Source of the DNA: Eutreptiella sp. 'Long Island Sound 2002'
Lineage: Eukaryota; Euglenozoa; Euglenophyceae; Eutreptiales; Eutreptiaceae
Reading direction: 5' to 3'
NCBI GenBank assembly: GCA_964036045.1
Contig: OZ038380.1
Span: 62,542,591 to 62,606,590 of the forward strand
DNA length: 64,000 bases
A program made the translations under genes and the position numbers. Within the stretch, counting starts at the first letter, position 1; each line of letters opens with the position of its first letter. Shown one piece after another: positions 1 to 54,940 of this stretch. Below the pieces are notes generated by a model. The model made no database searches. It worked only from the letters and a program-made list of their open reading frames with translations, and had not been told where the DNA came from.

Positions 1-358
1 GTGCCCACCTCTTCCACTTCCTCCTCAGACTCCTGCTTTCCCTCTGCCTTCTCAGGCACACAGCCGCAGTCCACAGGGCAACCCTCCGCAAAATTTTCAA
101 ACACTGCATTCCAGGGGATAGGGCTCAGCCCATCAGCGATGCGTAAATTGCTGCCTACGAGGGCACCAACGTATGCAATAGACTCTTGCTCCGTGGGCCA
201 ACCCAAAACCACACTGATGGGTACCGGCATGCACACTGCCAGACTGCAGGCCAGCTGTATAGAACTACTGATCACCATGAACCACAGCGTACTTGCTTCT
301 GAGGGTACTGCATCCACCAAGTGGTGCAAGACAAACCCAACAACCTCGGTACACAGCT
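1..358 (-). CDS. Element 1 gene, last visible exon (methyltransferase-like C-terminal part), runs off window
   Basis: The frame opens just after an AG acceptor (ACCAACCAG) near 359 and stays open to base 1, so the exon is incomplete at the window edge. It has no ATG of its own, as expected for an internal exon. The peptide contains a hydrophobic stretch (LWFMVISSSIQLAC), a segment reading WPTEQESIAYVGALVG, and an acidic tail rich in Glu. The WPTEQES..YVGALVG segment recalls the KP-x-x-L stretch that precedes motif I in some N6-adenine methyltransferases, but no complete motif is visible. It is separated from the preceding exon (616-1530) by an intron holding two copies of the element palindrome. 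Confidence 0.45.
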
Positions 359-462
359 GGTTGGTTCACCATTGGACCACGAGAAAAGGCAAAAATAGCG
401 AGGCACCTGTATAAGGGAACAGTGAGTCTGAGACCCCTATTGGTGCACCTGGATTGGCCGAT

Positions 463-541
463 GTTGTCTGGTTCCAGACGGTTTCCCACAATTTACCCTT
501 CTCAGGACGCATTATGCCTCATACGTGTCTGGTTCTAGACA
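463..541. repeat. Two element 1 palindromes in intron
   Basis: GTCTGGTTCCAGAC near 466 and GTCTGGTTCTAGAC near 523 lie between the exon ending at 616 and the exon starting near 358. Arms are TGTCTGG/CCAGACA with a two-base centre; the second copy has one arm change. Confidence 0.85.
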
Positions 542-615
542 AACTTTAGGATTCAACGGTGCACCCAACGTGACTGTGGTAGCAGGCAACAGGTAGCAAC
601 AGCAGACAGCGATAC

Positions 616-1530
616 CTTCTTGGGCAGCGGATCTTTGGAAACAATCCATAGCTCAGTGAATCCCATCGAGTACTGCTGTGTGACAAATCCCAGAATAAAG
701 CAGGCCAGGCAATTTGTTGTCAACCCCTCGTTGTCGTGCAACTTTCGGAGACCATCTAGCACTCCCAAGACGTCACAAGCGGTGCCAACAATGAGAACAA
801 GCGTCCCAGACACCAAATTGCGGCTAACAACGGAATGGATGCCTTCCATATGTCCCTTTGGAACTTCAACAATGATCAGGCAATACGGCATGTTGGCCAC
901 CGTAGAGTGCAGCGGCGTACCAGATGCCATCCCAGTGATATGCATGACCCCATCCAGGGACTTGCTGTCAGTCACCCCCACCTCTGGGGCCTCAGACCCA
1001 ATGTTCACGGTGATGAAGTTGACATCAGCAGCGATCTTGACCTCAGGGTTCACCAAGGGACGTTTCAGGGCATCACGGAGGGGAGCATATGCAGGGTCAC
1101 TCCAGATTGCAGCAGTGACGACATACTTCCAGGGGGGCCAGCAATTCTTCTCAGACCACTTCCAATTGTACGTCTTGAAAGTGACATGGGTCTCCGACAA
1201 GAGACTCTGTTCAAAACGGGCCCGTTCTGCAAGCGTTTTGCGACTGGGGTCAACCAAGTCGTTGTCCGGGTGGCAGAGATGATGTTCCCACAGACGGGCA
1301 GCCTTCAGTTGCTTTGCCTTTTTTGTAATCATTGGCAGTGACACATTGCTGGAGCCCATGTACTGCGTAACCTCCTCGAGGTCTGGTGGGATGAGGCCTT
1401 CGATACATTTCCAAAAGTGCAACTTTACTGGCAGTCCACGCTTTTCCGATCCATCGACATCAAGCACAGCCTTATCCCCCATCACTTGCACCCGGGCGGC
1501 ACTCGGAAACCACGCTTTTCTTACAGTGTC
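616..1530 (-). CDS. Element 1 gene, large exon with methyltransferase-like segment
   Basis: This exon of about 305 codons begins after a strong acceptor (GTCTGCTCTGCAG, minus strand, at 1531) and ends at AAGAAG|GTATCG near 615. The open frame extends further 5' into the intron, but that stretch encodes palindrome copies and is unlikely to be protein. Visible segments are VQVMGDKAVLDVDG, a Trp/Lys-rich middle (FKTYNWKWSEKNCWPPWKY), and NMPYCLIIVEVPKG followed about 25 residues later by GTLVLIVG. The last pair recalls motif IV (D/N-P-P-Y/W) and the following strand of a class I methyltransferase, but the catalytic tetrapeptide is not canonical (VEVPKG). With the ParB-like exon upstream, I infer a ParB-methyltransferase-like fusion. 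The exon is well supported; the function is not. Confidence 0.55.
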
Positions 1531-1599
1531 CTGCAGAGCAGACAGGGGTGTTAGCAGACATAACAGGAGGAATTCTGCTTTGACGGGCCGCATCAGCGA

Positions 1600-1925
1600 A
1601 ATGTTGTCTGGTTCGAGACATGGAGGTCCACGCACACGCTTTGACAGTGATAAAAAAGTTGTGTCTGGTACCAGACGAAAACAGGAGGCTTTCTGCTGTG
1701 ACAGGCCGCATCAGTGAAATGTTGTCTGGTTCCAGACATGGAGGTCGAGGTACAGGCTTTGACAGGGATAAAAAAAAAGTTGTGTCTGGGTCCAGACACA
1801 AACAGGAGGAGTTATGCTTTGACAGGCTGCATGAGTGAGTTGTTGTCTGGTTCCAGACATGGAGGTCCTAGCACAGGCTTTGACAGAGATAAAAGTACAT
1901 CAGGTGTCTGGTTCCAGACAACTGT
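1600..1925. repeat. Cluster of six element 1 palindromes in intron
   Basis: Six copies of the TGTCTGG-NN-CCAGACA word occur at roughly 60-bp spacing (near 1606, 1662, 1726, 1786, 1846 and 1903). They are embedded in a looser repeat containing 'tttgacagg' and 'gataaaa'. The whole cluster lies in the intron between exons ending near 1930 and starting at 1530. Centres vary (TT, TC, TA, GT) while the arms are conserved. Confidence 0.85.
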
Positions 1926-1929
1926 GACA

Positions 1930-2175
1930 GCCTTCGTTGTTGCATGGGACAACTGTCCTGGCCAGGGACGCATGTGCACATAGTTCCTGGACTGCCACCC
2001 TGTGCAACACCAGGCATACCAGTGTCCCCTCCTTCAGTGTATAGCCACCCTTCACGTACAGCACTCCCCGGTGTTCTCGTATGGATTTCTCCTCCAGTTC
2101 ATCGCGGTCCAGCTCAACACGCAGGAGTTCCATCTGTGTAGACGGCTTCGGCAGGGTCGTGGCAGACTGCACAGC
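1930..2175 (-). CDS. Element 1 gene, internal exon
   Basis: The exon starts after a CATCACAG acceptor at 2176 and is open for about 80 codons (QMELLRVELDRDELEEK ... GVLYVKGGYTLKEGTLVC). The preceding exon ends in phase 0, so the frame joins cleanly. The charged N-terminal half looks like a helix; a short beta-rich stretch follows. The 3' boundary is uncertain because a palindrome copy follows at 1900-1920. I recognise no family for this part. Confidence 0.45.
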
Positions 2176-2334
2176 CTGTGATGCGACGGATGGTCACAGC
2201 AGCTACCCGCCCCCCCCCCGACGAAGCGGCCGGTCACACAGGAGAACGGGCAGGTCGAGATGGACGTCACAGGCGCAGGATATTTCACTAGTGTGGGCAT
2301 GCAGTGTCGCACTGCACTGTCACAGTCGATATAC

Positions 2335-2852
2335 CTGTGACATGCCAGCCATTGACTCCCGTATGTGCAGAGTGAAATCCGTACGAACCACTTGAGCAAG
2401 AAATTGCACTGACCATGTTGGCGGTTCGAGATGGGCATTCATGTACTCCCGTGAGCTTCGTCGACAGGCCTCGGCGATATGCTGCCCCGATAAGATCCAG
2501 TACTGCCCAACTGCGTCACACCACACTATGATTTGGATTTTTGCTGCACCTGGTGGAGTCCTGCGTAGTTCTGTCATCTTGTCCTGGACAAGATCTTCAT
2601 CCACCACTCTGATTTGGCCATGCCCCCTTTTTTTGTCCCATTGCAGTCTGCTGAGGGGCAGCAGGACCTCCTGGTCCTCAGTATGGTCACCAAGTTTCAC
2701 TTGAGCATCTTTCCCCTTTGCTGTGTCACCACGTTTCCGCTTGTGCTTGGAGGGGGCATCATCCACGGCACTGAGTTGGGATGCCAGATCAATTGAGGGG
2801 TCTGCAGAGGGTTCAATGCTACCTTGTGTAAGATCAAACATGTTGGAACCAC
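2335..2852 (-). CDS. Element 1 gene, first visible exon with ParB-like domain
   Basis: An open frame of about 170 codons lies between an acceptor (TTTGCGCCCAG, at 2853) and a donor (ACAG|GTATAT, at 2334). The first in-frame ATG inside the exon is at 2841. After an acidic, Ser-rich start and a basic cluster (KHKRKRG), residues about 88-165 read GQIRVVDEDLV ... IQIIVWCDAVGQYWILSGQHIAEACRR. This is the layout of the ParB/Srx nucleotide-binding fold: a beta strand with 'V-x-x-L', then 'Y-x-I/L-x-x-G-x-H/R-x-x-x-A'. In bacteria and phages this domain is often fused to DNA methyltransferases, which fits the downstream exons. The domain call is by motif only. Confidence 0.5.
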
Positions 2853-2994
2853 CTGGGCGCAAAACACAAAATGACACAAGGGCGGGCCTTTTAGCAATGT
2901 GATTCTAACTCCAGGCTTTCCAGGCTTCCCGACGTGAGCATGCCGTTTTCACACTCAGACCACATCATGCGCAATACACAGGGGTGTAAAAAAA

Positions 2995-3612
2995 CACAGT
3001 CTGTCTGGTTACAGCCACAACAATTTGCTTTTGAAGTGTGCAACCGGTGTGAAACAATTTAATGTCTGGTTCCAGACAAGCATGTACTGTACTGGCAATT
3101 GACAGGGCATAAACAGTCAGTGTTTGTTTCTAGACACATTTGCAGCCCAATTCCGAGTTAGCTACCTACCCAATGTGATGCTAGCCTTTCCCAAAACAGA
3201 GCAGATGACGTTGCAGGCAATGAATGGCACAAAAAACAGTCTGTCTGGTTCCAAACACAACAGCTTGACTTCCGCAGATGACATGGGTGAAAAATCATCA
3301 ATTGTCTGGTACCAGACGGCTACGGTACTTCTGTGGGCACTAGAGGGGGTACAAACAGTTGGGGTCTGTTCCAGACACACATGCTTGCAGTGTTTATTGT
3401 GCTGGCTTCCTAAACCGGGTATTCGGTTGGTCAGGGTCACATGCTGTGGTTTTGCGGTGAAATAGGGATGTACAGCAATGCAAGAGTGCACGTAGGCGCG
3501 CATCTCATCAGTTCAGCACTACGTTGGTTGACATTAGTGGCCCCTGCGGGAGTACCCCGATGCTGCTGTGGTAACCAACTCTAGCCCTGTGTCTGGTTCC
3601 AGACACACACCT
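2995..3612. repeat. Seven element 1 palindromes between the two element genes
   Basis: Full or slightly mutated TGTCTGG-NN-CCAGACA copies occur near 2999, 3062, 3121, 3241, 3303, 3364 and 3590, again spaced about 60 bp apart. The region between the genes (about 2.86-3.64 kb) holds no other recognisable feature. Confidence 0.85.
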
Positions 3613-3642
3613 TTGACGTGCCCTGGCCACTTCGGCGGGGTG

Positions 3643-5246
3643 TCAGCAGTCCATTGAGTCATCCTCCACACTCACAACCTCATACTCCTCCATTTCTTGC
3701 AGTAGGACAACAGGTGGTGGTTCATCATCTTGTGCGTCCACGCCCACTATCAAATCCCCCACGGACCGGTGTGAACTTGAATCCGAGACAATTGCAGCTT
3801 CCGGGGCCTCATCGTCATCGTCTGCTACCGCAATTGCTGCGTCCCGCACCCGCTGTGCCTGTGCATCTCGGCCTGCATGCTCGCGGGGGTCTCTGCCTGG
3901 AACAATAGTTTGCAACAACCGTGAGACCTCATCGGTGGGCGAACGCGCTGCACGTGTCAATGTGGAGAGTGATCTAGTCAACGGTCTCTGGTACAGGGCC
4001 ACACCGCCGTTGTCCAGTGGTTGCCGTGGGAATTTCAGTTCCTCAGGGACAGCGGTGAATGCTGCCTTCTTTCCACTGTTCCATTCAACATGGACCATGC
4101 GGTTCGTTGTAATGGCCAACAGGAACCTGCGTAGCCGTGACGACATGCTCCCAACCAGTCCACTGCGGATCTGCCCCGGCGTCTTCTTTTCCCCGCGCTT
4201 TGGTGGTGCCATGCTCAAAAATAGGTCCAATGTCTGGTCAAAAGTCTTCATCTGGGGGTATGCGCGGCACCTAGATCCGAGACGACTCAACATGGCCTCC
4301 AGGGGCTCCTCAGCATAACAAGAGCCCGGGACGGCGTCATTCCAGGGTAACCACAACAGAAGGGCAAAACAAAGGGTGCGTACGTAGGGGAGCTTACAGT
4401 CAGTGTCCATTGTCAAGGCTACAATAAATACCAAACTCAACCCCAATACTTTGCGGGCCGTACGGCCTGTCCCTGCTGGTCGACCGTCCCAGTTGCAGTC
4501 ACGAACCAAGTTTCCAAGGAGGAACGCAGCCGGAATGTAGAAAGGCAGGAGGTTCTTCAGTCTAGTCAACCATACGAGCGGTAGCTTGCGGGATGCCTCT
4601 GGAAACTGCATAATTGAAGTCTCCTTGTGTACAATGCGGTCCTCAACGTTGGGTGTGGCTAACAGTAGGGCACAAAATTGCTTCTCAATGTGCAACAGCT
4701 TCGGGTGGCACATGATCTCTTCATCTACCGCGGGCATTTGCTGCCCAAGGTAGCCCAATATGGGGAAGAACTTACGGTGGATCATGGTACACACATACTT
4801 ATAAGGGTGCCAACAGCCATACATCATTGGGAGAGTGGCATAGTGCTCAGACAACTTAAAGGGGTTGTATGTGCGACTATAGATGAACTTGGCGAGTCTG
4901 TGGAATATATTTTCATCCATCAGAAGGGGCATGACGTGGCGTGTGTGAACCTGAATGGCTAGGCATTGTTCCGTGATGTGGAGCAAGTCCTCACTGGAGC
5001 TGGATACCAGGTCGGCTAGCGTCAGGGGGTACCATTGGAGTGAACGATTGCTATCCCGGTGCACATCTAGTGGAACTCGTACGTATTGGGCCTCTGGTGG
5101 ATTTCGCCTCAAAGCGTCCACCGTTCGTGGGAACTCCCGGAAACTGGCTGCTATGGTCTGTGCTGTTTGCGGGATGTGTTGGAGAAGATCGTCAAGTGTA
5201 GGGAAACCCGGGTACATAGGAATCGCAGCTGAATGCCACACTGACG
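3643..5246 (-). CDS. Element 1 uncharacterised protein, main exon (MYGxWHPYKY / CNWDGR family)
   Basis: A long frame of 532 codons, ending in TGA at 3643. Its most 5' start in frame is a GTG; I prefer an exon beginning at an AG acceptor near 5246. Notable segments, counted from the GTG, are VRVPLDVHRDSN (about 54-65), MYGCWHPYKY (130-139), CNWDGR (239-244), a hydrophobic stretch (VLGLSLVFIVALTM), and an acidic C-terminal tail (DDDDEAPEAA, EMEEYEVVSVEDD). A second copy at 35.0-36.35 kb aligns along most of the length, so this is a real protein family under past selection. No DDE triad, nuclease or helicase motif is evident, and I do not recognise the family. It could be the element's transposase or a structural component. 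No premature stop or frameshift is visible in this copy. Confidence 0.7.
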
Positions 5247-5331
5247 TGGCCGTGAGGTTCAGACAGCAATCAGGTCGTACCGGGTCACTGCAGTACCGTC
5301 TGCGATACCAGTTGTCAAACTACACCACCAC

Positions 5332-5781
5332 CTGCTTCCCTACCATTGATCTCCAAATGGCGTTTGTTCTGGCATGTGCCTGCTGCCGCAAAGGCGGTAA
5401 CCGGCCCGCGGCAAGACCTGCATGTGACAATTGTCTCCGCATCCCCCTGGATGCACTTATCATTGAGGCAACAGCCTTTTCCTCTAGCAGAGCCATCTTC
5501 CGACACAGTTGCATCATCGTGTACACCTGGCGTGCAAAGACTCCATACCACCTTGGCCACGGTGTTTGCCCATGAGCTTTGATCAACGTTGCCATACTGC
5601 GTCTGGTTCGCCAGTTGACCCTCATCTGTGCGCAGAACTCCACAAGCAGGGCTGCACCTGGTTCCTCATCGCGTAAAGCGGCATCCATAAGCTCCAGCGG
5701 TGTACCATATTTCGCTCCACGTAAGAAGTCACGCAGGAGACCAAAGGGATCTGTCGCAGCACTGGTCACCTGGCTCATCAA
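5332..5781 (-). CDS. Element 1 uncharacterised protein, likely first exon
   Basis: Starts at ATG 5781 and is open to a stop at 5320, but a donor (AAGCAG|GTGGTG) at 5331 allows splicing over a short intron of roughly 85 bases to the main exon. The peptide begins MMSQVTSAATDPFGLLRDFL and includes VEFCAQMRVNWRTRRSMATLIKAHG, with regular helical periodicity. Palindrome copies resume immediately upstream (5793 onward), which suits a promoter or 5' flank. No family recognised. Confidence 0.55.
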
Positions 5782-5792
5782 CAGTGGAACAG

Positions 5793-6118
5793 AACCAGAC
5801 TAAACGGAACAGTGAACAACAATGAAATAGACCTGCTCAGTGACCAGACAATTGGTGGAGAGTGTCTGAAACCATACACTGTTCACTCAAATCAGGATCT
5901 TAATCACGGAATTTCAGCAAAATGTCTGGAACCAGACACATTCTCCATGTTATGGGGGTGTACATAGGACGTATGACACTCGGGACAGACACCTGGTGAC
6001 CACCCCCCGGAAAGGTTGAAAATTGTTTAGTTTGTCTGGAACCAGACACTGCGACCTCAAAAACTTGTTGTGACAGGGGTGGAATTTCAAAGAGTGTCTG
6101 GTTCTAGACACTTTTCGA
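5793..6118. repeat. Element 1 palindromes upstream of the CNWDGR gene
   Basis: Copies and half-copies of the element word (AACCAGAC, GTCTGGAACCAGAC near 5922 and 6036, GTCTGGTTCTAGAC near 6098) flank the 5' side of the gene. The centre here is often AA, the complement of the TT seen on the other side, so several copies are in the opposite orientation. Confidence 0.8.
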
Positions 6119-6129
6119 AATTCCAAGAG

Positions 6130-6920
6130 AAAGGTACATAGGTGGACAAAGATAACACGGCACAAGGCAAAACTTGTTCACTGAAGTGTAAAAATTGACC
6201 ATGCGCAGTCACCTGGGTTTGTGTGCGTGGATATGAGAACCAAAAAGGCAGGCTCTCAGGCAATCAAATTCGTGTACGCGTCTGAATGACAAAAAAACAG
6301 GCTATGAAATTTCCCACCGGCCAAAAAGGCCCTTTTTGGGTGTTTTGGGCTGATTTACCGGGGTGGGCAACTTGGGCCGTCTAAGAAGGTGGGGGATGGA
6401 CGCGGCCATCAAGGGAGGCTAAGGGTGTAGCCGCAGCGATGTCCACCCTCGGATGGGGGCTAGTGTGGGCCCTGCGGATGCTGTATGCCCAAATAGCCGC
6501 ATGTTGGTATGCCGGCCGTGGTGTGTGGAGCTAGCCCACGGTGTTAGCCCGCCAAGTACCACTGAAGGTCGGCTTTTGGCTGGGGGGTCACGGGGGCCTA
6601 GTCCGTTGCTCGGTTGCACGGCCTACCACACAAAGGCTCTAGGACACATCCCCAGCGCCCACATACAGTTGCGGCCAATACAGCGCGCTACCCCGTCCAC
6701 CAAAGGACGGCCCATTCTAGTCCTAGTGTGCATGCTGCTACAGAGGAAGGAGAGGGAGAGGGAGGAGGTGTACGGGGTGGTAAAGGTATTAGTTTGTGTG
6801 GTGTGTGTGTGTGTGTGTCCGCCCACTTCTAGTACCTTGACGTCTTGACCGTGCATGGCTTCTCAGCACGAAGCATGGGAGTGGTAATGGGCCGCTTTGT
6901 GCCCGAGGCGTTCACACCTT
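6130..6920. other. No gene seen
   Basis: Short frames on both strands lack splice context or protein-like composition. A (GT)n tract of about 20 bp sits near 6800-6820 and a purine-rich run at 6745-6770. Confidence 0.5.
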
Positions 6921-7439: not shown

Positions 7440-7492
7440 AATGCTCGTCGTGTCCGTGGCTATACTGCGGCCACAAAAACCACAAGTGCGCG

Positions 7493-7670
7493 AGTCCGTA
7501 TCCCCAACTCAAGGGGCCACGTCAAAGCGCTGGAGTCTGTATCCCCAACTCAAGGGGCCATGCCAAAGCACGGGAGTCCGTATCCCCGACTCAAGGAGCC
7601 AAGCCAAAGGTGTGGGAGTCCGTATCCGCAACTCAAGGGACCACGCCAAACCGTGGGAGTGTGGAAGTGT
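7493..7670 (+). repeat. 41-42 bp tandem repeat, about four units
   Basis: The phrase GTATCCCCAACTCAAGGGGC recurs at about 7498, 7539, 7580 and 7622 with a few substitutions, each followed by 'ac/tgccaaagc..gggagt'. The units contain a short GGGGC/CTTGAG inverted pair. The frames across it are repeat-encoded and not convincing as protein. Confidence 0.85.
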
Positions 7671-17455: not shown

Positions 17456-19792
17456 TTATGGAGTGGTGCAGTGAGAACACATGGTGCTGCAGGACAGTGT
17501 GGAGGCGTCGTCAGACATGCGTGACGCTGGCGATGTGTGCCTTGATGAGGTGTGGGAGGACGGCATGCTTTCGGTGTCTGCCTGGCTTGGTCCCTGCTCC
17601 CAGTCCATTTCAACCAGCTGCAGTTCTGCCAACAGATTTGCTGCTACACGTGGCGACATGGGTGATGGTGGTTGGGGGGTGTGAAATGTATTTCTGCGTT
17701 CCAGCGCCTCCCACGGTGTGTGCATGCAGTGCACTGTGCTCGGTGTGGCCAATGAGGTGTGAGGGAGGCGGGCTCGGAGGTTGGAGAGTGGCGTGTAGGC
17801 GACGGTGTGTGGTGTGAATCTCTTCGGGTATTTGGGGTTCCTGGCCGGGGTGCAATCTTCAATGTCCTGTGACGGTGTCGGTCGGCGAGGGGTTCTGGGG
17901 GGGGGTGGGGGGGTGCTGTACTCTTCCGCTGTGTGCCGCAGTGGTGTGAGCTGCGACTCTGGGAGGGGGGGCTCGTCAAGCTCTGGAGCCTCTTCCTCCA
18001 GTAGGTCCGCTAAGGATTGTACATCATCATTGTCTGGTGGCTGTTGTTGCCCTGTTTGCGAGACGGAGACGTGTCCAAAAAGGAGGGGGGATTTTCGCCG
18101 ACCGACATCCGCCAGATGATCCGCTCTGGTATTGCCTTTGATTCCTATGTGGGAGGGGATGTGCATCCAGTGGGTGGGGGAGTGTGCTGATTCAATTAGG
18201 TCCAGTACCTGGGTCCACAGGTCCACGTGGCTGACCGGGCCCGCGGATCCTGTCCACTTGTGCCTGCGCCACTTTTGGGCCTTGCCGTGGACACCGTCTA
18301 CAACGAGTAAGGAGTCAGGGCAGATCAGGACAGGTTTGTCTGGTGACCGTGCTTGCAGCGCGCGCAGGGCTGCCCTCAGTTCCCCTCTGTTGTTGGTTTG
18401 GGGTTCACTCACTGGGATTGGTTCGGCTGTATCCCTGGAATCCCCAAAGGAGACGCCATACCCTCCCACTCGTCCTACTACCTCATGGTCCTCCGATGAT
18501 CCGTCGGGATATATGACTTCCCACCCTGCTTCGACATACCGCTGGATTATTTGTTCATAGTACTCACAGAGTTCTTGTTTGTGTGTTTCTTTTCTCCGTT
18601 TCTTGCGTGCCGGCGCTACCAGTGTGGGGGGGGGGAGGGAGGAGTTGTGTGCTGTGTGGACCCTCGGGTGCTGGATCGTGAGCGTGTTTGGATCACTCAG
18701 AGAATCGAGTGCCTGCAAGAACAACTGTGTTTCTGATTTGGGGAAGGAGGGGAAGGGGTGGTCCACCCAATCGCTGAGGTTGGCTCTCCACTGTTTCAGA
18801 AACTGTTGCCACGGGGGTTGGAAGGTTGGGTGATGAAATTTGCATCTGCTGCGGACCATCCAGTTTGCCCTGACCGCAGACCAGTAGAGCAGCCCTAGGG
18901 GGGATGAGACAGAGAGTGCAGGTTGATCCCATAAGATTGCTTCTGGGTCTGCTGTGGAGCCGTCCGCTAGCGCTGCAGGTCCCACACATTGTTGGGCAAT
19001 GAAAAATGCAGGTTGCAGAAATTTACAGTGCAGGGTGGCATGCTTGATTGTTTCTTGAACCCCTGGATGTAGTGGGCATGCAGTGCCATTTGGCTGCCAA
19101 CTGGCCAGCCTGGTGCCCACCGTGAGTTTGTGCCAGAGCGCTAGTTGGATAAACTGGGTGTCTCTGGGAGGGAGACGCAACTTCGCCCATGCTTGCCAGG
19201 TTTCCGCCGTCTGTCTGGGCGGTTCAGGGGTCAAGGACATTAGGTAATGCAACATGTGCCGTTTGTTCCATTCTGACCAAAACATGGGGCTTGCTTCCTT
19301 TAATTTCGTGTGGGGCGCTGCTGCTTGGATTTCTGTTATGCACGCTTTGTAAACCGGCGCCCAAGTGGGGGGCAGGAGGGCAGAATACTCTGGGATTTCA
19401 AGTAGTTGTCCCAGGGTGGTGACACCTTTACGTAGCAGGGAAGGGGAGTAGTAGGAGTTGGCTTTGGTGTCGCGGAATAATGCTGAGTGCCATGCAGGCA
19501 ATTTGACATACTGATCCAGAATCGGGACTGGTACTGGTGCATGTTTGCGCAGGAGGGAAAATGCCTTGCACGAGGTGCCCAGAAAGGGATAAGTCTTCCA
19601 CGGTATCGGCCCCAGCTGGAGCCAGGGCCTGGATGGGGGGGGGGGGGGGCAGGGGGCTGGGGCAGGTAGCCCTAACACTAGCAGACATTCTCTCAATGGC
19701 ATGACCCAATACCCCAAGCACCACTTCTGACAGCGTGGGGCTGCTGGATTGCGCAGATGCAGCGTTTGCTGGTTACTTTGTTCGTGGAGCAA
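17456..19792 (-). CDS. Non-LTR retroelement pol, C-terminal part with RNase H
   Basis: A 778-codon frame. Residues about 200-400 form a linker with a Cys/His cluster (C239-P-L-H242 ... E-T-I-K-H251 ... H255-C256), the layout of the zf-RVT knuckle that follows reverse transcriptase in plant-like and protist LINEs. Residues about 425-565 are a type I RNase H: D430 in YPDGSS, E471 in NNRGELRAAL, D493 in CPDSLLVVDG and D558 in NTRADHLAD, so the four acidic residues are all present. The C-terminal 200 residues are Pro/Ser/Thr-rich. Reverse transcriptase motifs should lie upstream (higher coordinates), but I see none intact in 19.8-20.5 kb, so this copy is probably 5'-truncated or split. Decayed relatives lie at 26.0-27.5 kb and 10.7-11.15 kb. 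Confidence 0.8.
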   Translation of the reverse strand: MLHEQSNQQTLHLRNPAAPRCQKWCLGYWVMPLRECLLVLGLPAPAPCPPPPPSRPWLQLGPIPWKTYPFLGTSCKAFSLLRKHAPVPVPILDQYVKLPAWHSALFRDTKANSYYSPSLLRKGVTTLGQLLEIPEYSALLPPTWAPVYKACITEIQAAAPHTKLKEASPMFWSEWNKRHMLHYLMSLTPEPPRQTAETWQAWAKLRLPPRDTQFIQLALWHKLTVGTRLASWQPNGTACPLHPGVQETIKHATLHCKFLQPAFFIAQQCVGPAALADGSTADPEAILWDQPALSVSSPLGLLYWSAVRANWMVRSRCKFHHPTFQPPWQQFLKQWRANLSDWVDHPFPSFPKSETQLFLQALDSLSDPNTLTIQHPRVHTAHNSSLPPPTLVAPARKKRRKETHKQELCEYYEQIIQRYVEAGWEVIYPDGSSEDHEVVGRVGGYGVSFGDSRDTAEPIPVSEPQTNNRGELRAALRALQARSPDKPVLICPDSLLVVDGVHGKAQKWRRHKWTGSAGPVSHVDLWTQVLDLIESAHSPTHWMHIPSHIGIKGNTRADHLADVGRRKSPLLFGHVSVSQTGQQQPPDNDDVQSLADLLEEEAPELDEPPLPESQLTPLRHTAEEYSTPPPPPRTPRRPTPSQDIEDCTPARNPKYPKRFTPHTVAYTPLSNLRARLPHTSLATPSTVHCMHTPWEALERRNTFHTPQPPSPMSPRVAANLLAELQLVEMDWEQGPSQADTESMPSSHTSSRHTSPASRMSDDASTLSCSTMCSHCTTP

Positions 19793-19799
19793 GCGTCAA

Positions 19800-31910: not shown

Positions 31911-31915
31911 CACAC

Positions 31916-32237: not shown

Positions 32238-32269
32238 TGAAAAAGGCTAAGCAACAAAGCGGGGAAGAG

Positions 32270-37164: not shown

Positions 37165-37372
37165 AGAAAAGCAAACCAAAAATAGAAAATTTACCCATAG
37201 AATTAAAGCTGCAGTTCCCAAACTCACTTTGGAACAGGCGATTCTTAGACCTGCGGGTTCTTTTTGGCTATACAGGTCGTGCACGCTTCACAACGCCAGC
37301 CGCTGAAAGGAAGCATAGGCAAAAAACACACAAAGAAACCGTGGGGGGAGGGCGTGGTGGAGTGACGCCGGT

Positions 37373-37985
37373 GGGCTTTGCTCTCCCGTCTTCGACGCTT
37401 GTTGCGTCAGTAATGTGCTGATAACATAGCATGTTTGATGCATTAAATTTTATCCTAAGATCTTCCAGCCCTGCTCCTGAGCGGGCGCCGCAGCGGAGTG
37501 CCGCACGGGCAGACGACCATGTCAACAGGGATTTCTAAAGTTGATTTTTGTCGAGATTTTATATTCGATTTTCGCGGGCGAGGCATGATACACGAATTGT
37601 ATGTTATTCTACATTTTCAGCGTGCATGGCATATAGGAATCCTCACTGTGCATACAGAGATGTAGTTTATGGCTGTGCATCCGGCAAGGGTCCTGAACTT
37701 ATTCGCGGCCTTGAACAGCAGTCAACAACAAAAATCTGTGTTCATTATGGGTTGTGCTCATCGCTGACTTGGGACTGGGTATGGGGCATTATGGTTTGGA
37801 TGCATTTTATTCAACTGGGACAAAACTGTGAAGTGGGTTGCTTCTGCAAGTGCCCGGAGAGTGAAAACCGAATCACAACCAGTCCAAAAGGTGGAGGAAG
37901 GCAAGCAAAAGGAACGCAGTCAAAAAAAACACCCGGAGTCTCAAAAATGAAGGCTAGGCATCAATCCTGTTACAAAATAAGTTCA
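37373..37985 (+). repeat. Direct duplication, copy 1
   Basis: Begins 'gctttgctctcccgtcttcg' and ends 'ggcatcaatcctgttacaa'; matches 39,372-39,990 with scattered substitutions and small indels. Contains a short frame from ATG 37,519 (MSTGISKVDFCRDFIF...) and a second open stretch (YRDVVYGCASGKGPELIRGLEQQ) that could be joined by splicing. No family recognised. Confidence 0.85.
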
Positions 37986-38505: not shown

Positions 38506-39371
38506 AGTTGAAGTTTGGAGAGGTGCTACGTTGTCCTCTGAGCAGCTGGAAGGTGTTACTGGCCTTTAGTCTGATAAACCCTGGGGTTCATCATGGCTTG
38601 ATTTAGTTTTCAATTTGAAAAATGACTTTCGTGCCACTGGCTCTGGTGGCCCTGAAAACTATTATAAGGGGCCGTGTGGCCTTATTTGTATTCAGGCTTG
38701 CTTTCCTTTTCAATTTTACCGTGTTCAGATTTTGCAATGAGTGTCCACTACATTTCTCCCAGCACTCGCTAATCTGCAGACCAGCGCTCCGCATAGGACG
38801 ATACAATAGAATGAATTTTTGAGTTCTTCTCAGCACCTCTCTCCTGACTTGAGCAAGAGAATCGTGGGTTTGTTTATTGCTTCTGTGTGACTAGTCGCTC
38901 TTCATTGCATGTTGGTGTGGAAATTGCGGACAATTCTGCCTCCTGTCCCTGAGGGTGCCCAGGGGAGTGCCAATTTGGGGCTTGAAAGACACAGGGCACA
39001 AGTATTGGAATCGCGAGGTGTGAAAAGAATCGTTCTGTTACGATTGTATGTGTAGGGGCAAAAACTGCATTCATGGGCAATTATGAAGACATGTGGAAGG
39101 GTGAGTAAAGTAGATTGTAGTCCGAGGATAGTATAGGTGCTCCCCACCAGTTCTCTCTTGCCCGTGTACACCATGTAGCACAAGCACACGGACAGGCACA
39201 AACACACTGTGTGCACCAGCACCCACCAAGCAGAGCACCGCATGCCATGTCCGCACTGTCACGGATAGGGAGCACCAGGAGTGTGTCACGGGTGTGTAGA
39301 GGCGTGGGAGAGAGGTACAGCGTGATTCCGAGTGCACATAGTGCATTCGTGGAAGGGGGGTCAGCCTGGAT

Positions 39372-39990
39372 GGCTTTGCTCTCCCGTCTTCGACGCTTGT
39401 TGCGTAAGTAATTTGCTGATAACACAGCATGTTTGATGCATTAAATGTTATACTTAGATTTTGCAGTGTCCTGCTCCTGACTCGGACCTGAGCGGGCGCC
39501 GCAGCAGAGCGCCGCAGGGGCAGACGACCATGTCAACAGGGATTTCTAAAGTTGATTTTTGTCGAGATTTTATATTCAATGTTTGTGGGCAAGGTATGAT
39601 CCACGATTTGTATGTTATTCTACATTCCCAGCGTGCATGGCATACAGGAATTCTCACTGTGCATACAGAGATGTAGTTTATGGCTGTGGACCCGGCAAGG
39701 GTCCTCAACTTATTCGCAGCCTTGAACAGCAGTCAACAACAACAATCTGTGTTCATTATGGGTTGTGTTCATCGCTGACTTGGGACTTGGTATGGAGCAT
39801 TATGGTCTGGATGTATCTTATTCAACTGGGACAAAACTGTGAAGGTATGTTACTTCTGCAAGCGCCCGGAGAGTGAAAACCGAATCCAAAAATAGTTCAA
39901 AAGGTGGAGTAAGGCAAGCAAAAGGAACGCGGTCAAAAACACTACCCGGAGTCCCACAAATCAAAGCTAGGCATCAATCCTGTTACAACA
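39372..39990 (+). repeat. Direct duplication, copy 2
   Basis: Second copy of the unit at 37,373-37,985, about 2.0 kb downstream in the same orientation. The SKVDFCRDFIF and LIRSLEQQSTT peptides are conserved between the copies, with mostly single-base differences. Confidence 0.85.
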
Positions 39991-48817: not shown

Positions 48818-48844
48818 CCCTGCGTGCTCATTTGGATCAGGTAC
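48818..48844 (+). repeat. Element 3 left terminal inverted repeat
   Basis: 27 bp pairing with 54,914-54,940; single mismatch at the fifth position (G versus A). Confidence 0.9.
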
Positions 48845-48869
48845 TTCACAGAGTGGTTTCCTGTGATTT

Positions 48870-48990
48870 AACCCGGTTGAACTCGGAAGGGGCGCGGTTG
48901 AACCGCTGAACCGCGGTTGAACCGCGGGTGAAACACCGCCAGCGCTGGCGGCGGCGGCTGCGCCAGCCGCGCGCGGTTTTCTGAACAAAA
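48870..48990. repeat. Element 3 subterminal GGTTGAACC palindromes
   Basis: Four copies of CGGTTGAACCG-like words between 48,875 and 48,930, then a GC-rich inverted stretch (CCAGCGCTGG, GGCTGCGCCAGCC). Confidence 0.8.
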
Positions 48991-49063
48991 TATTTGCATT
49001 ACCACCTGAAACTGACGCGTGACAAACCTTTTTTAAAAAATGTCCCAGCACTGGCTGTAAGTC

Positions 49064-49284
49064 GTGAACGATCACTACAGCGGGTGGGTGGACCAACAGC
49101 TGGTGGATGACTTGTTCACCTTTTTTTGCACAAACGGCACGACAAAACGCCTATGGAAACAACTTACTGACCGAATTGGTAACACACAGAGGGCTTCCAA
49201 ACAGACAAAACGGGGTACAAAAAAAGCTTTCACAGGATCCGACGCTGTACGCCTCATTTTGGACCTTGGGATGCCGAAGCGAAG
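49064..49284 (+). CDS. Element 3 transposase, possible first exon
   Basis: Open frame beginning at a GTG (49,064); the peptide includes DDLFTFFCTNGTTKRLWKQLTDRIGN and ends LILDLGMPKRR at a donor (AAG|GTATGT) at 49,285. A true ATG start is not obvious, so another exon or a start at an upstream ATG (49,039) interrupted by a stop is possible. Confidence 0.45.
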
Positions 49285-49588
49285 GTATGTGGCATAATGC
49301 ACACATGCCTACAAGTGGTTCAACGTGGTTCAGCGGTGCGGTTGAACTCTTATCACAAATGAACAATTGTGATTGTGCTTCATGACAACGTTTGCACGGC
49401 TAAATAATCGCTTCATGTTGCCCAAAGCATGAACATATGAGTTGCAACGTATTGCCCGCGTCACAAATGTGAATACTTTGTGGTTTGTACCATTGGATGC
49501 TTTTTGGTGCCATGACGGCAACCCATTCAACCGCAGGTTCAACCGCGCACTTTATACCAATTTCCCGGTTCAACCGTCCCTGGGTACA

Positions 49589-51016
49589 AGAAGCTTATTT
49601 CGTGGGCCGACGCAAAAGAGAAGAAAACCCGTGCAAGCACCGTCCCATGGACACATTGCTTTCCGTGGTATGCAACGATGGATAAAGCCTGGTCCACGTT
49701 AAGTGAGAGACAAGCACTAAAAACGACCATAAAGGATGGAAGAGTTGGGGTGCGTTGGGATGTGGATGATTGGATACAATATATAGGTGATCAGAGGGAT
49801 GTGCTAGAGGAAATGCACTTCCCAAGATTTAGGGATGATCACCCCTATGTACTTATAGTGCGTGGTGATGGGTTTCCATGTGGAGCAAGGTCATGGTGCC
49901 AAATTGCATGTGGTTTTGCAAACCACATGCAAAAAGCACGAACCTTGCTCTACAATTGGACCCTTGACCTTGCTCTGGTAAGTGAGCATGAAACGGATCT
50001 TGTGCGTGTCCTCTTTTGAGAGACACTAAAAAAAATACAACAAATTATTGACCGTCGCTACATGTTGCTCCGAGGGTTTTGGGTGCGAACGGTTGTCATT
50101 ATTGGAGGCGATAGCCCTTGGCTTCGTCATATACTTGGTCTATCAACATTTTATCAAATTGGTTCAATTTATTCTTTTGCGACATGGTCTAGGCAGACAG
50201 AAAGATGGGTAGGGTGTGAATGGCGACGAAGTACAAGCCTTGAAGCAAAATTCCTAAAGTATAGGAAACAAGGAGTTAGTTGTGTTGGTACAAAAGGGTG
50301 CATTGAAAGTCCACTATTAAAAGTGGATTACCGTATAGGGTGTGTCATCATGTGTGTTCTCCATCTTGTGATACGAATTGGTGAATACTTAACAACGTTT
50401 GTGCGCACACGAGCCATAATGTTGACGGTACCACAACGATCCAAGGTTCAAACCCTCCTAAAGGACGGTAAGACCAATATTTTTTTTGAAAGGCCGGTCC
50501 TTCCCCGATGGGGAAGAGACATGGCACTTGTTTGCCAATTGATTGCCCATTGCAAAGAGTTTGCGTCTAACACCACATGTCACCACTATCGTTGAGGACA
50601 TGGGGAAATTGCTAACCGCTATCTATCGGTGGACATATGATCCGTTCGTCCAAGGGTGTGCACAAATTGCAAAAAGGTTTCAAAACACTATATGTCCCCA
50701 TAAACGATCACCCTACTTGCTTTGGCTCCGCAACGAGGGGGCCATCGTATTGGGTAATTTGCAACCTTGGGGGGGGGGCATGTTTTGTGGCGACATTGTT
50801 GAGTCGCTTAACTATGTCTTTAAAGACAACTTTCTAACCACAAGTTCCCGGGGTGGTGGTCGTAAGGCTACCAAGGAGGAAAAGGATGAGGCAATGCTCC
50901 GACACGCGCACGAGCGCACCTCCCTCTACAAGGAGATGCCTCGATGGGACGGGCGGCGGCGACAGGAAGATGAGCACGTGGTGCACGCTCAATCGGAAGT
51001 TGGCAACCAGGAGGTG
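49589..51016 (+). pseudogene. Element 3 DDE-like transposase, disrupted
   Basis: Three acidic positions suit an RNase H-fold transposase: D in YVLIVRGDGFPCGARSW, D in VVIIGGDSPWLRHILGLS, and E in CGDIVESLNYVFKDNF. They are spaced like a DDE enzyme with a long insert before the Glu. An in-frame TGA at 50,017 lies in smooth protein (RVLF-stop-ETLKKIQ), and a frameshift near 50,570 is needed to continue into the Glu-containing part. The exon ends at GAG|GTGTGTG near 51,016. The superfamily is not one I recognise. The nonsense codon and frameshift suggest this copy is inactive unless a donor at 49,977 (CTG|GTAAGT) removes the stop. Confidence 0.65.
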
Positions 51017-51099
51017 TGTGTGTGGTTCAATCGTGGTTCAGGAGGTTCACCCGTGCGGTTAAACCGGTTTCCCCACGGTTTCACCCCTGCTTCTCTCAG
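51017..51099 (+). repeat. Intron with element 3 words
   Basis: GT...CTTCTCTCAG intron containing GGTTCAATCGTGGTTCAG, GGTTCACCCG, GCGGTTAAACCGG and ACGGTTTCACC, variants of the terminal GGTTSAACC words. It shows clearly that the words are intronic. Confidence 0.75.
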
Positions 51100-51890
51100 G
51101 TGCCTTTGCGCCATGGACAAGGAGTCTTTGGGGAAGGCTCTGCAGGACTGCCTGCGGGCACTGGGTACGGGACAAGGCGCCGATCCACCAGCTGCGCCAG
51201 CGCCACAAGCAGCGGCAGCGCCTCCAGCTCCCCACCTGGCCGACAACTTCCCGCTGAAGAACGAAGTGGTGGTCGACAACACCTCTAGCCCCGACACTAT
51301 TCTGGCGGCCGAGACGCCTGAGTGGCGGTGGCTGGCTGACGTGACGCCGAAGTACGTGTGCTGCCGTGCCATGACGCTCTGGATGAAGAAGCACCGCCAA
51401 GAAGACAAGGATGGGGTCCAGTCCAACTCCTGGGAGACGAAGTGCCTGAGCGCCGGGGAGTTTTCGGAGTGGAAGGTGCTGCGTGTGGGCCTGTCCAGCG
51501 ACCTCCAAGGCCACATGTCCCTGGATGAACCAGGTCTGGGTGCCCTGTTCAGGATATGGGCCACCGCGGGGTGCGGTGTTGCCAGGAGCGCGTCCTGGTT
51601 TGGCGCGGATTCTGTGGGCCGGGGCAGTGGTCACAGCGCATGACACGGTCCACGCTTCCTCTTCAAGGCCCCCTTGGAGTTGCCACCAGGTTGGTTCGAC
51701 GAATCGGAGGTCCAGCGGTACACGGCGACTCCGAGCATCATGCTGGCTATGGGCGGCACCATCTCAGGTGGGGGAAAGCACAAGAAGGCCAAGGCAATTG
51801 CCGCGACGGCAGCAGCGGCGCCAACGGCAATGGCACCATCGCCATTCGTGCAGCCAAGTGTGGTTCAAGCGATCCAAGGGGTGCAACAGG
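51100..51890 (+). pseudogene. Element 3 second protein, N-terminal part, with in-frame TGA
   Basis: Starts after the acceptor at 51,099; an ATG at 51,112 (MDKESLGKALQDCLRALG) could be the start of a separate gene. Protein-like segments are WRWLADVTPKYVCCRAMTLWMKKH and EFSEWKVLRVGLSSDL. An in-frame TGA near 51,641 interrupts sequence that continues smoothly (HGPRFLFKAPLELPPGWFDESE). The exon ends at CAACAG|GTGTGC near 51,891. No family recognised. Confidence 0.5.
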
Positions 51891-52044
51891 TGTGCAGTAG
51901 TTCAACCGTCGTTTCAGCGGGTTCAACGGTGCGGCTGAACCGCCTTCACCGTCTTCAACCGTGCACAGTTGAGCGTCACGTTCCTACAGACTGAATCGCG
52001 TTCCCCCACTTCTGCGGTTCACCTGCACCCCTGCTTTCTCTGCA
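51891..52044 (+). repeat. Intron with element 3 words
   Basis: Between CAACAG|GTGTGC and TTTCTCTGCAG. Carries GTTCAACCG, GGTTCAACGG, GGCTGAACCG and CTTCAACCG copies. Confidence 0.8.
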
Positions 52045-53793
52045 GTTGACCGCCAGTGATGTGCCTGAGCACATGTTCGTGGTGGATCGGCGTGGCCCTG
52101 GCATTTTTGTCCGCGGGCGATGGCCACCCATGCCCATCGCGGAGTGTTGGGACCTGTGGTATCGGCAGATCCCTGGCGCCGCTCAAGTGGTCGACCGCAT
52201 GAGTCGTGGCGTGCAGCGGGGCTTGCGGGAACTGAGCAATGCCGGGCAGGACAGTCCTGCGCCAGAACGGCAGAGGTCAACGCCCCTGGAGTTGAGTCCA
52301 GCCGTCACCACCGCGCCCCAACCAGGTCCTGTGGGAGAGAGCTTTCAGGAGTTCTACAAGAGTGTGTGGGACCGCCCACTTGGAGCAGTTGGAGCATCCG
52401 AGAGCAGTGGAAAGGCCCCCAAGCCTCCACGTCTTCGTGCACCACCGCCACCAGAAGAGACGAGCACCCCCGGCAGCAAAGTGGTTTCGAAGTCCCTGTT
52501 TCAGTCCCCCCGGAAGGAGCTCCTCCCACGGAAGGGGACAAGTGCAAAGGCCGAAGCACCGCCCACGAAGGCCCAAGTCTCTGGCGACAAGAAGCCGAAA
52601 AAGAAAGCCAAAACTGGCAGCGCTGCTTCCTCGAAAAAGCGAAAAATCGCCCCGGACAGCAGTGAGACGGACGAGTCAGACCCCCTTTTTGAAGAGCACG
52701 AATGGGTCCAAGCCGCAAAGCATATACCAAAGAAGAAGAAGAAGAAAGTGGTTCCGGCCCCCAGTTCCGGGAGTGACTCCAGCAAGCTCCCCAGCGACAC
52801 GGTGCAGGTTGTGAAGGCCCTGGCAACTGAGTTGGCTGCGGGATCGAAGGATGGCGACGAGGAGAAAGCGATCAGGGCAGAATCGGCGCATGCATCAGCT
52901 CTGGTGGTGTGCACGGTTGAACTGGTGAAGTGTAGTTCCACCGCACGCTTGAACCGCCTGAACCACGGTTTCACAATTTTTTTTCCTTTTTGCAGATCCT
53001 GGATCAAGCCCAACAACGACGACTGGCGGTTGAGGACACGTGCAAACAGCTGCGACAGCGGTTCGGATGGGCGGCCAACACGCCGATTTGATGGGTCATT
53101 GTGGACGGTCCTGATGGCGAGGCAAGTCTGGATGTGGGTACCCTGGGGAAAGCCACGAAGGGGACCCCGCGGCCCAAAGAGGGAGAAGAATTGGTCTTCC
53201 TTCCCCCGCAGTGGGAGGAGGAGGCCGATGCAGCTGAGACAACGTGGCCAGTTATTGCAGTCAAGGACAGCACAAGCTTAAGTAACCCCCACGCTGCCGA
53301 GGAGGCGTTGAAAGAGCGCCGCGCCCAGAAACAGGAAGCGATCGATGAGGAGGGCAAGAAGACAATGGAGGACTTCCCCTCGTACAGTCCACTCGAGGAG
53401 AAGAAGGTCACTCCCGCGCCGGAAGCTGAAGCGGAAAAGGACAGTGACAATGGGGTTCCTGTGCCGACGCCACCGGTGATTCCAGAGCCAAAGGACACTG
53501 AGAAGCACATTCCTGTGCCTAGTCCGCCGGAGGTGCCAGAGCCAAAGGAGAGTGAAGAACAGGTGGTCAAAGAGGAGAAGGTGGAGTCTGCTGGTCCAGT
53601 GGTGCAGGAGCACCAGGAGAGTGGGGAGGACTTGCCTGCAGGCCCGGTTGGTCAGGAGGAGATTGAGGAGGTTGGTGGAGCGCCGAATAACGAGGAAATG
53701 CCTGCATGTAAGCAGGAAGATAACAAAGAGGCAGCCCCAGAGATTGGTGCACCAGTGCCTCAGGTGAAGGAAGAGCCACTCCCAAACGACTGA
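52045..53793 (+). pseudogene. Element 3 second protein, Lys/Glu/Pro-rich part, with intron and in-frame TGA
   Basis: The exon opens HMFVVDRRGPGIFVRGRWPPMPI, then becomes Ser/Pro/Lys-rich (KKPKKKAKTG, KKRKIAPDSSETDESD, KKKKKKVVPA, likely nuclear localisation signals). An intron (about 52,907-52,996, CTCTG|GTGGTG to TTTTTGCAG) holds further GGTTGAAC words. The next exon (ILDQAQQRRLAVEDTCKQLRQRFG) reaches a TGA near 53,086, after which the same frame continues WVIVDGPDGEASLDVG and runs to 53,793 as a Glu/Pro-rich tail. Either the TGA is a mutated codon in one long protein, or a second gene starts at 53,101. Function unknown; a chromatin- or DNA-binding accessory is possible. Confidence 0.5.
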
Positions 53794-53799
53794 CTTTTC

Positions 53800-54358
53800 A
53801 TGTGTCTCAAGAGAATGAGGGGGTGGCAGTGGCAGGAGCGACATGGAGCACGGTACCAGAGGCAGTTGTGGGGGGCCGTAATGGTGCAGGGGCATCACCG
53901 TGTGCAAGTTGCAGTGCAAACGAGGAGAGATCCGGACCTGGTCCGGCGCGTGAACGCACACATCCGAAGTGTACTCCCCCCACTAACCTACACTGCGCTC
54001 GCAGTGGTCCATAGGGTGGGCGATCATCCCATGCTTGTACATACACATCCAAAGGATGACAGTCCCCTTACGGGGGAAATAGCCCTGGGTGATTTTGTTG
54101 GGGGGGGAACTGTTTACCAGTGCCCTACTTTGTGCAAATGGGCCATCTCGTCCTGCATGGATACATTGGGGGCGTGATTTATTATGGGGACACATTGTGG
54201 ATCCTGGATATGGGGTCATGTTTAACGCTCTTAGGCCCCACGTGCCTCTGGCGTGGTCTGGACAGCGCATTGTGCTCGTACCGTACACAGGCATTGCCTG
54301 GGGACGTCTGCCTGTGGCGATGCAGAATGAACTGGTCACGTTTGGCTTCCCAAGGTGA
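53800..54358 (+). pseudogene. Element 3 2-oxoglutarate/Fe(II) dioxygenase-like gene, one frameshift
   Basis: Frame 1 (to 54,177) reads MLVHTHPKDDSPLTGEIALGDFVGG, and frame 2 (from 54,089) continues GELFTSALLC ... FNALRPHVPLAWSGQRIVLVPYTG. Joined across a run of eight G at about 54,100, this has the layout of TET/JBP-type dioxygenases: an H-x(n)-D metal site, 'LGDF-GGEL', then 'FN..-PH......G-R...V-YT' with the distal His and the 2-oxoglutarate-binding Arg. The family oxidises 5-methylcytosine or thymine in DNA; TET/JBP genes are known passengers of DNA transposons in fungi and algae. Motif-level evidence only. The frameshift may be real decay or a sequencing error in the homopolymer. Confidence 0.55.
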
Positions 54359-54374
54359 AGATGTGTTTTTTGTG

Positions 54375-54913
54375 TAGCGCTTCGTGCAACAGCGGTTGCA
54401 CCGGTGAAGCCGGTGCAACCGCCCGCCTGTCCAGCGGGTGAACCACCTCGAAAGCCGGTTACATTTTAGTGCAATCCATGAGGAAACAAGCTTCTGACAA
54501 TCAAGTGTAGGCTTGCATGTAATTGTTGTTCACCAAAAAGGGTCCAAAGTCCTAAAGGGAATCCAAACAAGGCGCAGGGGTGTATGTCACCACGCCTAAC
54601 GAAACGTTGATGGTGAAGCCGTGCGGTTTCACCAATACAGCCGCCGCCACTGGCACCTACACCACCACCGCCGTGAAATATGATTGAAGAGAAATAGGTC
54701 TCCAGTGTTTTGCACCAACGAGGTAAGAAGTATTTCACAAACATTCTTTTTAGGGGGTGTGGCATCTCTTGGAGGGCTGAAAAATAGCGGTTTTCAGGCT
54801 GCTACTTAACAATTTGTTGCTGTACCACGATAGATGTTCAACCGTGGGGAAGCCGTAATGAAACTGCGCGGTTGATCTCGGTTGAACCACGGTTTCACTT
54901 GGGTAATTCAAGG
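54375..54913. repeat. Element 3 right subterminal region
   Basis: GCGGTTGCACCGG, CCGGTGCAACCGCC, TTCAACCGTGG and CGGTTGAACCACGG words cluster at 54,385-54,450 and 54,837-54,900. No gene seen. Confidence 0.75.
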
Positions 54914-54940
54914 GTACCTGATCCAAATGAGCACGTAGGG
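54914..54940 (-). repeat. Element 3 right terminal inverted repeat
   Basis: Reverse complement of 48,818-48,844 with one mismatch; immediately followed by LINE sequence (GGCACCATCATCATAGGCGA). Confidence 0.9.

Follow-up and report, generated by a model that had tools for sequence, protein, structure and literature searches.

Family-specific palindromic words in the noncoding DNA of three transposons from a 64-kb stretch of the Eutreptiella genome

A stretch of 64,000 nucleotides from Eutreptiella sp. 'Long Island Sound 2002' (contig OZ038380.1, positions 62,542,591 to 62,606,590), hereafter referred to as the window, can be inferred from its introns and transposon genes to be eukaryotic and to abound in mobile elements. 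It contains DNA transposons of three families, designated elements 1, 2, and 3, each of which carries a short palindromic word of its own: TGTCTGGNNCCAGACA in element 1, GACCGGTC in element 2, and GGTTSAACC in element 3. A preliminary description of the window had proposed this arrangement, and the present counts confirm that each word is private to its element, is concentrated in ends, introns, and intergenic DNA, and is hardly ever found in coding sequence. We propose that each word is a double-stranded DNA site for a dimeric DNA-binding protein of its own element, most likely the transposase, a reading that we consider somewhat more probable than its negation.

Distribution of the words in the window

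The counts of all three words exceeded those in each of 100 dinucleotide-preserving shuffles of the window. TGTCTGGNNCCAGACA, allowing up to two mismatches, was found 17 times where 0.46 were expected, and exact GACCGGTC was found 30 times where 0.77 were expected, with no shuffle as high in either case; exact GGTTSAACC was found five times against an expectation of 0.88, the top shuffle reaching four. All of these sites (17/17, 30/30, and 5/5, respectively) lie inside the three element families, each word being confined to its own. A scan of the window for palindromes with arms of 5–7 letters, gaps of 0–4, and at least four copies, from which arms of one or two different letters were excluded, returned the three element words, a stray site at 14,456 among them, and a single further palindrome, located within a 172-bp duplication at 34,295–34,638.

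Whether exons carry the words at equal density was checked within the window, with introns inferred from reading frames and relatives rather than from RNA, and noncoding enrichment was found in every family. In element 1, none of the 17 copies of TGTCTGGNNCCAGACA falls in 4,145 bp of exon and all fall in 2,005 bp of noncoding DNA (binomial P 5e-9). The same is true of the 13 exact copies of GACCGGTC in copy A of element 2, which has 1,691 bp of exon and 1,115 bp of noncoding DNA (P 6e-6), while 20 of the 23 sites matching GGTTSAACC with at most one mismatch in element 3 occupy 1,450 bp of noncoding DNA and three occupy 4,663 bp of exon (P 3e-10). These per-site values count tandem copies as independent, an effect softened by counting intervals: a site is present in 13 of 14 noncoding intervals versus 2 of 13 exons (Fisher P 7e-5). 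Seven other long open reading frames (ORFs) of the window, totalling 12,897 bp, are free of TGTCTGGNNCCAGACA and GACCGGTC and contain three near-matches of GGTTSAACC.

The stricter claim that the words never occur in exons holds for exact copies but not for one-mismatch words, which are found in exons at 32,072 in copy A and at 50,445, 51,523, and 51,862 in element 3. Similarly, most introns contain the word as had been described, the exceptions being intron a/b of element 1, which has none, and a stretch of element 3 at 51,014–51,099, which is doubtful as an intron.

Element 1 and the phasing of its palindromes

Element 1 (positions 1–6150, minus strand) is recognized from its ORFs, a fold match, and multi-copy relatives; it is truncated by the window start, and its right limit is approximate. 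The transposase ORF (3643–5778, minus strand), supported by the fold match and by relatives, contains no TGTCTGGNNCCAGACA. A search of the transposase model with Foldseek yielded no significant match, and a significant one came from VIA-align alone, where the best fold matches, the P element, Hermes, and Transib, suggest a P/hAT/Transib-like fold. The ORF has an in-frame stop at 5320–5322 that related copies read through, which indicates that intact copies exist. The second gene is an accessory gene with several exons, conserved in multi-copy relatives. Its protein has no Pfam family and no significant PDB sequence match, and its AlphaFold model is unusable (mean predicted local distance difference test score of 35). 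A ParB-like N-terminus and a degenerate N6-methyltransferase were by-eye ideas for this protein and are not claimed.

Four TGTCTGGNNCCAGACA palindromes lie 5' of the transposase (5863–6110, spacings of 60, 110, and 62 bp), one lies directly 3' of its stop codon (3590–3605), and five lie between the two genes (3002–3318, spacings of 61, 58, 121, and 61 bp), that at 3121 having three mismatches. Within the accessory gene, intron b/c (1531–1953, minus strand), whose donor is only bounded, contains six palindromes spaced 57–61 bp apart. Inferred intron c/d (366–615, minus strand), with a donor AAG/GTATCG at 615 and an acceptor that is not fixed, contains two that are 61 bp apart. Intron a/b spans about 2176–2334 (minus strand), its acceptor likewise not being fixed. 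The inferred introns are supported by the reading frames together with the boundaries of conservation in two relatives of the accessory protein: exon c begins at 1530 with DTVRKAWF after a CAG acceptor, and P0080 (69% identity) is conserved from DTVKKAWF on and not before it, whereas in P0077 (63% identity) divergence begins after the donor-side KKV.

Outside the intron b/c array, six of the nine neighbouring pairs of palindromes are 57–62 bp apart, a regularity matched by 0 of 100,000 random placements and, in a best-window control, by 1 of 20,000, the test counting one site with three mismatches. Across 18 aligned sites, the palindrome arms agree at 90% between clusters, a value partly built in because the sites were chosen by match, whereas agreement in the two 30-bp flanks is 27% and 28%, with 25% expected by chance. 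Among the homologous units of intron b/c, palindrome positions agree at 88/96 versus 183/232 for other positions (P 0.006), in a comparison whose pairs are not independent and whose sites were chosen by match. The minus strand of element 1 also has eight copies of a second motif, CTGTCA, all of them in noncoding DNA. Seven of the eight follow the start of a palindrome by 30–34 bp; five of these are in intron b/c, where the boxes sit between the palindromes, one is between the genes, and one is upstream. We infer that the repeat unit of element 1 has two boxes and spans about six helical turns, and that it is old enough for its spacers to have diverged.

Other genomic copies were sampled through their translations in a protein database, where relatives of the element-1 and element-2 proteins represent many copies on contigs of up to several megabases; the two largest clusters of element-2 relatives comprise 64 and 42 member sequences. 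The alignments used 25 of 33 rows for matches to the element-1 accessory protein (A1), 19 of 29 for the element-1 transposase (A2), and 14 of 30 for the element-2 transposase (A3). Among 62 element-1 proteins (22,286 residues), many of which do not extend into an intron, ten have a place compatible with TGTCTGGNNCCAGACA at no more than one mismatch, giving 29 places in total, compared with a mean of 6.0 and a maximum of 26 for 59 shuffled-arm control palindromes. In P0065, P0070, P0086, P0089, P0090, and P0091, the intron is translated and at least two word places precede the exon, spaced by 20 or 40 codons (23 in P0065); the number of words varies among these six readings, each of which has a different start point. 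P0056, P0075, and P0092 have one single-mismatch place each, which is probably due to chance or marginal. No paired element-1 word was found in viral contigs.

Element 2 and the recurrence of its intron repeat

Element 2 is present in two copies, both on the minus strand. Copy A (29979–32774) is of the piggyBac type and is bounded by 18-bp terminal repeats, ATATTCCTTTGGCTACCA. Copy B (24634–25902) shares these terminal repeats and lacks the transposase region, its longest open stretch being 109 codons; it nevertheless holds 17 of the 30 exact GACCGGTC of the window, chiefly within a tandem array whose steps are 217 and 207 bp. Exon 2 of the copy A transposase (30349–31711, minus strand), which is free of exact GACCGGTC, encodes a DDE_Tnp_1_7 domain (E 1.1e-21, 77.9 bits against a cut-off of 22.4), and the protein matches PDB entry 6x67 with E 3.6e-9. 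Its C-terminal segment is a candidate cysteine-rich zinc segment, the Cys/His pattern being present in 12 of 15 aligned rows and the remaining rows being truncated or diverged there. The transposase belongs to the piggyBac family; the element itself is not filed as a canonical TTAA piggyBac, because no TTAA lies just outside any of the four ends of copies A and B and all four edges read ATAT. This ATAT may belong to the terminal repeat, or else it is a target duplication of an unusual kind. Apart from the transposase exon, copy A has no ORF of at least 250 amino acids, and no relative of this transposase was found in viral contigs.

The words of copy A form a triple GACCGGTC at its 3' end (30131–30156), a group of five at its 5' end (32276–32744, at 32276, 32331, 32340, 32584, and 32737), and five more in the inferred intron (31712–31911, minus strand). 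The intron array (31,776–31,910) is about 81% identical to the internal tandem array of copy B, in opposite orientation, and its repeat is homologous to the ends of copy A as well as to the copy B array. A word-rich repeat that occurs both in the intron of copy A and in the body of a relative without a transposase is not sufficiently accounted for by a splicing or RNA role alone, whereas a role in double-stranded DNA can explain it. The ends of the two copies are 82–83% identical, and within them word positions agree at 40/40 versus 444/532 for other positions (Fisher P 0.002).

Of 30 proteins of the piggyBac-type family, two that represent a sister family, P0010 and P0017 (64% and 57–58% identity), open with an intron reading that contains GPVRTGL, which is exactly compatible with GACCGGTC-NN-GACCGGTC; among 99 control palindromes, two gave a place of this kind. 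A further relative of the transposase, P0016 (378 amino acids), joins an exon-1-like start and an acidic-basic linker to the late catalytic region; the linker is absent from the window copy, and P0016 is probably an internally deleted copy. The doubled GACCGGTC often stands beside TTTGCAAA, a second palindrome of element 2 (24,786–25,443 and 31,780–31,869), which occurs four times in copy A and eight times in copy B, in noncoding DNA. The CpG observed/expected ratio is 0.96 in copy B versus 0.56–0.84 in the eight remaining stretches, perhaps in part owing to the CG within GACCGGTC.

Element 3 and its degenerate word

Element 3 (48823–54935, plus strand) has perfect 22-bp terminal inverted repeats, CGTGCTCATTTGGATCAGGTAC. 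Three GGTTSAACC-like sites, two of them exact, lie at its left end (48875–48923), and five near-matches, including an exact site at 54880, lie at its right end (54359–54935). All of its introns are on the plus strand: inferred intron 1 (49287–49589) has four near-matches, two of them exact; intron 3 (51890–52045) has three and intron 4 (52907–52995) has two, both leading in phase 0, by hand count, into the next open frame. The candidate intron at 51014–51099 also has three near-matches; however, the frame stays open if it is retained, which makes its intron status uncertain. Even if this stretch is recounted as exon, the enrichment for element 3 persists (P 2e-7). The word is better described by its half-sites, of which 30 lie in the 1,450 bp of noncoding DNA, 5 in the 4,663 bp of exon, and 80 in the other 57,887 bp.

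The notion of unrelated transposases is supported for elements 1 and 2; the transposase ORFs of element 3 have no match in Pfam, the sole search made with them. A by-eye likeness of its last ORFs to the end of a TET/JBP dioxygenase is not claimed, Pfam giving no match and the PDB nothing significant; such enzymes are carried by fungal DNA transposons (PMC12730594). In otherwise open genes of element 3, in-frame stops occur at 50,017–50,019, 51,641–51,643, and 53,089–53,091, and a G-run breaks the frame at about 54,105.

A putative binding site and its alternatives

If each word is bound as a dyad by a protein of its own element, then sites in nearly every noncoding interval of an element would serve it in two ways. 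Those at the ends would load transposase for synapsis, whereas those in introns and intergenic DNA would allow the same or an accessory protein to mark or regulate the whole element in a sequence-specific manner, as VANC21 does on VANDAL21. Use of the end sites in transposition is likely, and use of the internal arrays in marking or regulating the element is plausible. Protein binding, the element-encoded nature of the protein, and the function of the internal arrays are what we infer here; a role at the level of DNA is favoured by the regular phasing of the element 1 sites, the end words of element 2 that are intact in both copies, the intron word in translations of other genomic copies, and the intron repeat in a relative that has no transposase. 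The enrichment and these points, along with the palindrome known for the piggyBac cysteine-rich domain, lend indirect support to the earlier suggestion of binding sites for a transposase or another element-encoded protein. We put forward with more reserve, as a tentative extension, that unrelated superfamilies within one protist genome may have converged on filling their introns and intergenic DNA with arrays of private palindromes for self-marking, read by their own transposase or accessory protein so as to regulate or de-silence the element.

Several observations weigh against the binding-site proposal. Noncoding DNA is the easier place for tandem arrays to persist, and this by itself yields an exon-poor pattern; the regular spacing of element 1, in turn, may be inherited from an ancient tandem array, as the persistence of the CTGTCA box suggests. 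One of the three modelled introns of element 1 carries no TGTCTGGNNCCAGACA, and P0080, which may belong to another family, lacks the word throughout the 170 residues that lead up to the shared exon. The word of element 3 is degenerate, with five exact copies. Finally, between the intron of copy A and the array of copy B, which is the only intron comparison free of match-based site choice in both copies, word positions are not significantly better kept than others (34/40 versus 76/95, P 0.63), the word mismatch being one single word that the copy B array lacks; pooling ends and intron gives P 0.03. Evidence for selection on the word itself is thus mixed, and because of this intron test our confidence was lowered a little, from fairly probable to slightly better than even for the binding-site proposal and by a still smaller step for convergent self-marking.

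The strongest rival holds that the words are needed as transposase sites at the ends only, the inner arrays being neutral spill-over by unequal exchange or conversion. We regard this as possible, with perhaps a minor share of the probability. The homology of the copy A intron repeat with its own ends and with the copy B array, the tandem arrays whose number varies between copies, and the finding that, in element 2, words are conserved significantly above adjacent positions at the ends and not in the intron are all in keeping with it. The decay in the element 2 intron fits this explanation, but the phasing in element 1 fits it less: the intergenic and intron c/d clusters keep the word spacing despite near-chance flanks, and sites occur in almost all noncoding intervals across three families. 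It is also conceivable, though unlikely, that a separate accessory protein of the VANC type, and not the transposase, binds the words and strips silent chromatin. The layout resembles that of VANC21 on VANDAL21, and element 1 has a conserved multi-exon accessory gene; however, copy A encodes no long product besides its transposase exon, and the accessory ORFs have neither a Pfam family nor a significant PDB sequence match, which also leaves the proposed self-recognition by accessory DNA-modifying enzymes without a candidate.

Two further readings that bear on suggestions of the preliminary description, both of which we consider highly improbable, fared less well. One is that inverted words form hairpins in pre-mRNA that aid splicing or intron regulation, and in its favour are the folds of intron b/c of element 1 (z -2.9 against shuffles), of the element 2 intron (z -4.5), and of 51,891–52,046 in element 3 (z -2.6). 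Excess folding in three of five stretches is nevertheless expected anyway from inverted repeats, and the two other folded stretches of element 3 have no excess structure (z 0.27 and -0.92), so that such signals are not upheld as a common function; moreover, the words also occur at ends, upstream of genes, and in the transposase-less relative, where the intron repeat is inverted. An introner-like origin, in which each intron would be a short inserted derivative of its element, draws on the homology between intron and end repeats in element 2. That similarity concerns internal repeats, however, and a search of the window that tolerated up to four or five mismatches placed the terminal repeats of element 2 and of element 3 nowhere but at their ends, so that such an origin is not supported for these two elements; the ends of element 1 lie outside the window.

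Surrounding sequence

Copy A is flanked by a 69-bp inverted repeat (28,644–28,831, 99% complementary) and by the 172-bp direct duplication mentioned above, which share 33-bp and 57-bp pieces with CCGTGTACGTACACGG-like words; a fourth element may possibly enclose copy A. Elsewhere, four tandem repeats of 41–42 bp lie at 7,484–7,651, and direct repeats about 2 kb apart, which are 86–93% alike, lie at 37,359–37,975 and 39,357–39,988. Retroelement genes at 17,459–19,795; 55,061–57,700; and 59,673–61,997 show RNase H; reverse transcriptase; and chromodomain plus integrase-like domains, calls that are partly below the Pfam cut-offs. The window scan, with its exclusion of one- and two-letter arms, found no repeated palindrome in these genes.

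Comparison with known systems

VANDAL transposons are Mutator-like. No Mutator-like transposase was found in the elements described here, which have a DDE_Tnp_1_7 domain (element 2), a P/hAT/Transib-like modelled fold (element 1), or no Pfam match (element 3), and on this criterion the elements stand outside the VANDAL/VANC group. The likeness to that system is one of layout. In Arabidopsis, VANC21 is reported to recognize a word of nine bases in the introns, intergenic DNA, and terminal noncoding regions of VANDAL21 (PMC5735166); the words lie in variable tandem repeats, and VANC21 removes silencing, VANC6 being a further anti-silencing protein of this kind (PMC5735166, PMC10398659). Both systems have a short word that is specific to the family and lies mainly outside coding sequence, in densely packed tandem arrays of copy-variable number, and the features found here are such a motif dense in noncoding DNA and, in elements 1 and 2, tandem repeats that differ between copies. 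In contrast, the VANC21 motif, as given in those sources, is non-palindromic and in one orientation, whereas the words here are dyads, and binding and demethylation have been demonstrated for VANC21, whereas binding of the present words is proposed.

For element 2, a parallel is the piggyBac transposase, whose cysteine-rich domain is reported to bind a palindromic internal repeat as a dimer (PMC7351741), and the element-2 protein has a candidate cysteine-rich segment at its C-terminus. In the accounts of piggyBac (PMC7351741) and of the end motifs of piggyBat (PMC11707139), as far as cited here, the palindrome is at the ends; in element 2 it is also found in the intron and in the internal array of copy B, and the ends have no adjacent TTAA. 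A similar clustering inside the ends is seen in other superfamilies. In hAT and CACTA elements such as Ac, Tol2, and Spm, many short transposase sites are clustered inside the ends, in a subterminal position, and are not known to spread through introns, whereas in the elements here the introns carry the words as well. Introners also link DNA transposons with introns and are described, in the cited part of one report, as commoner in aquatic organisms (PMC9860276); the introns of elements 2 and 3 differ in carrying internal repeats without the terminal repeats of the element in which they lie. A search of open-licence papers brought up VANC work with this layout; for piggyBac or P/hAT-like elements it brought up nothing on intron arrays, which is weak evidence of absence.

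This layout bears on how elements recognize themselves over their full length and on what role introns play in such elements, matters for which VANC/VANDAL21 is the worked example found. Two differently built families, and probably a third, sharing it within 64 kb would make sequence-specific self-marking a general and testable phenomenon, and they would supply compact pairs of protein and word, namely the piggyBac-type transposase with GACCGGTCNGACCGGTC and the P/hAT-like transposase with TGTCTGGNNCCAGACA. If the tentative extension to convergent self-marking is correct, the VANC strategy would be a general solution and not a peculiarity of plant VANDALs.

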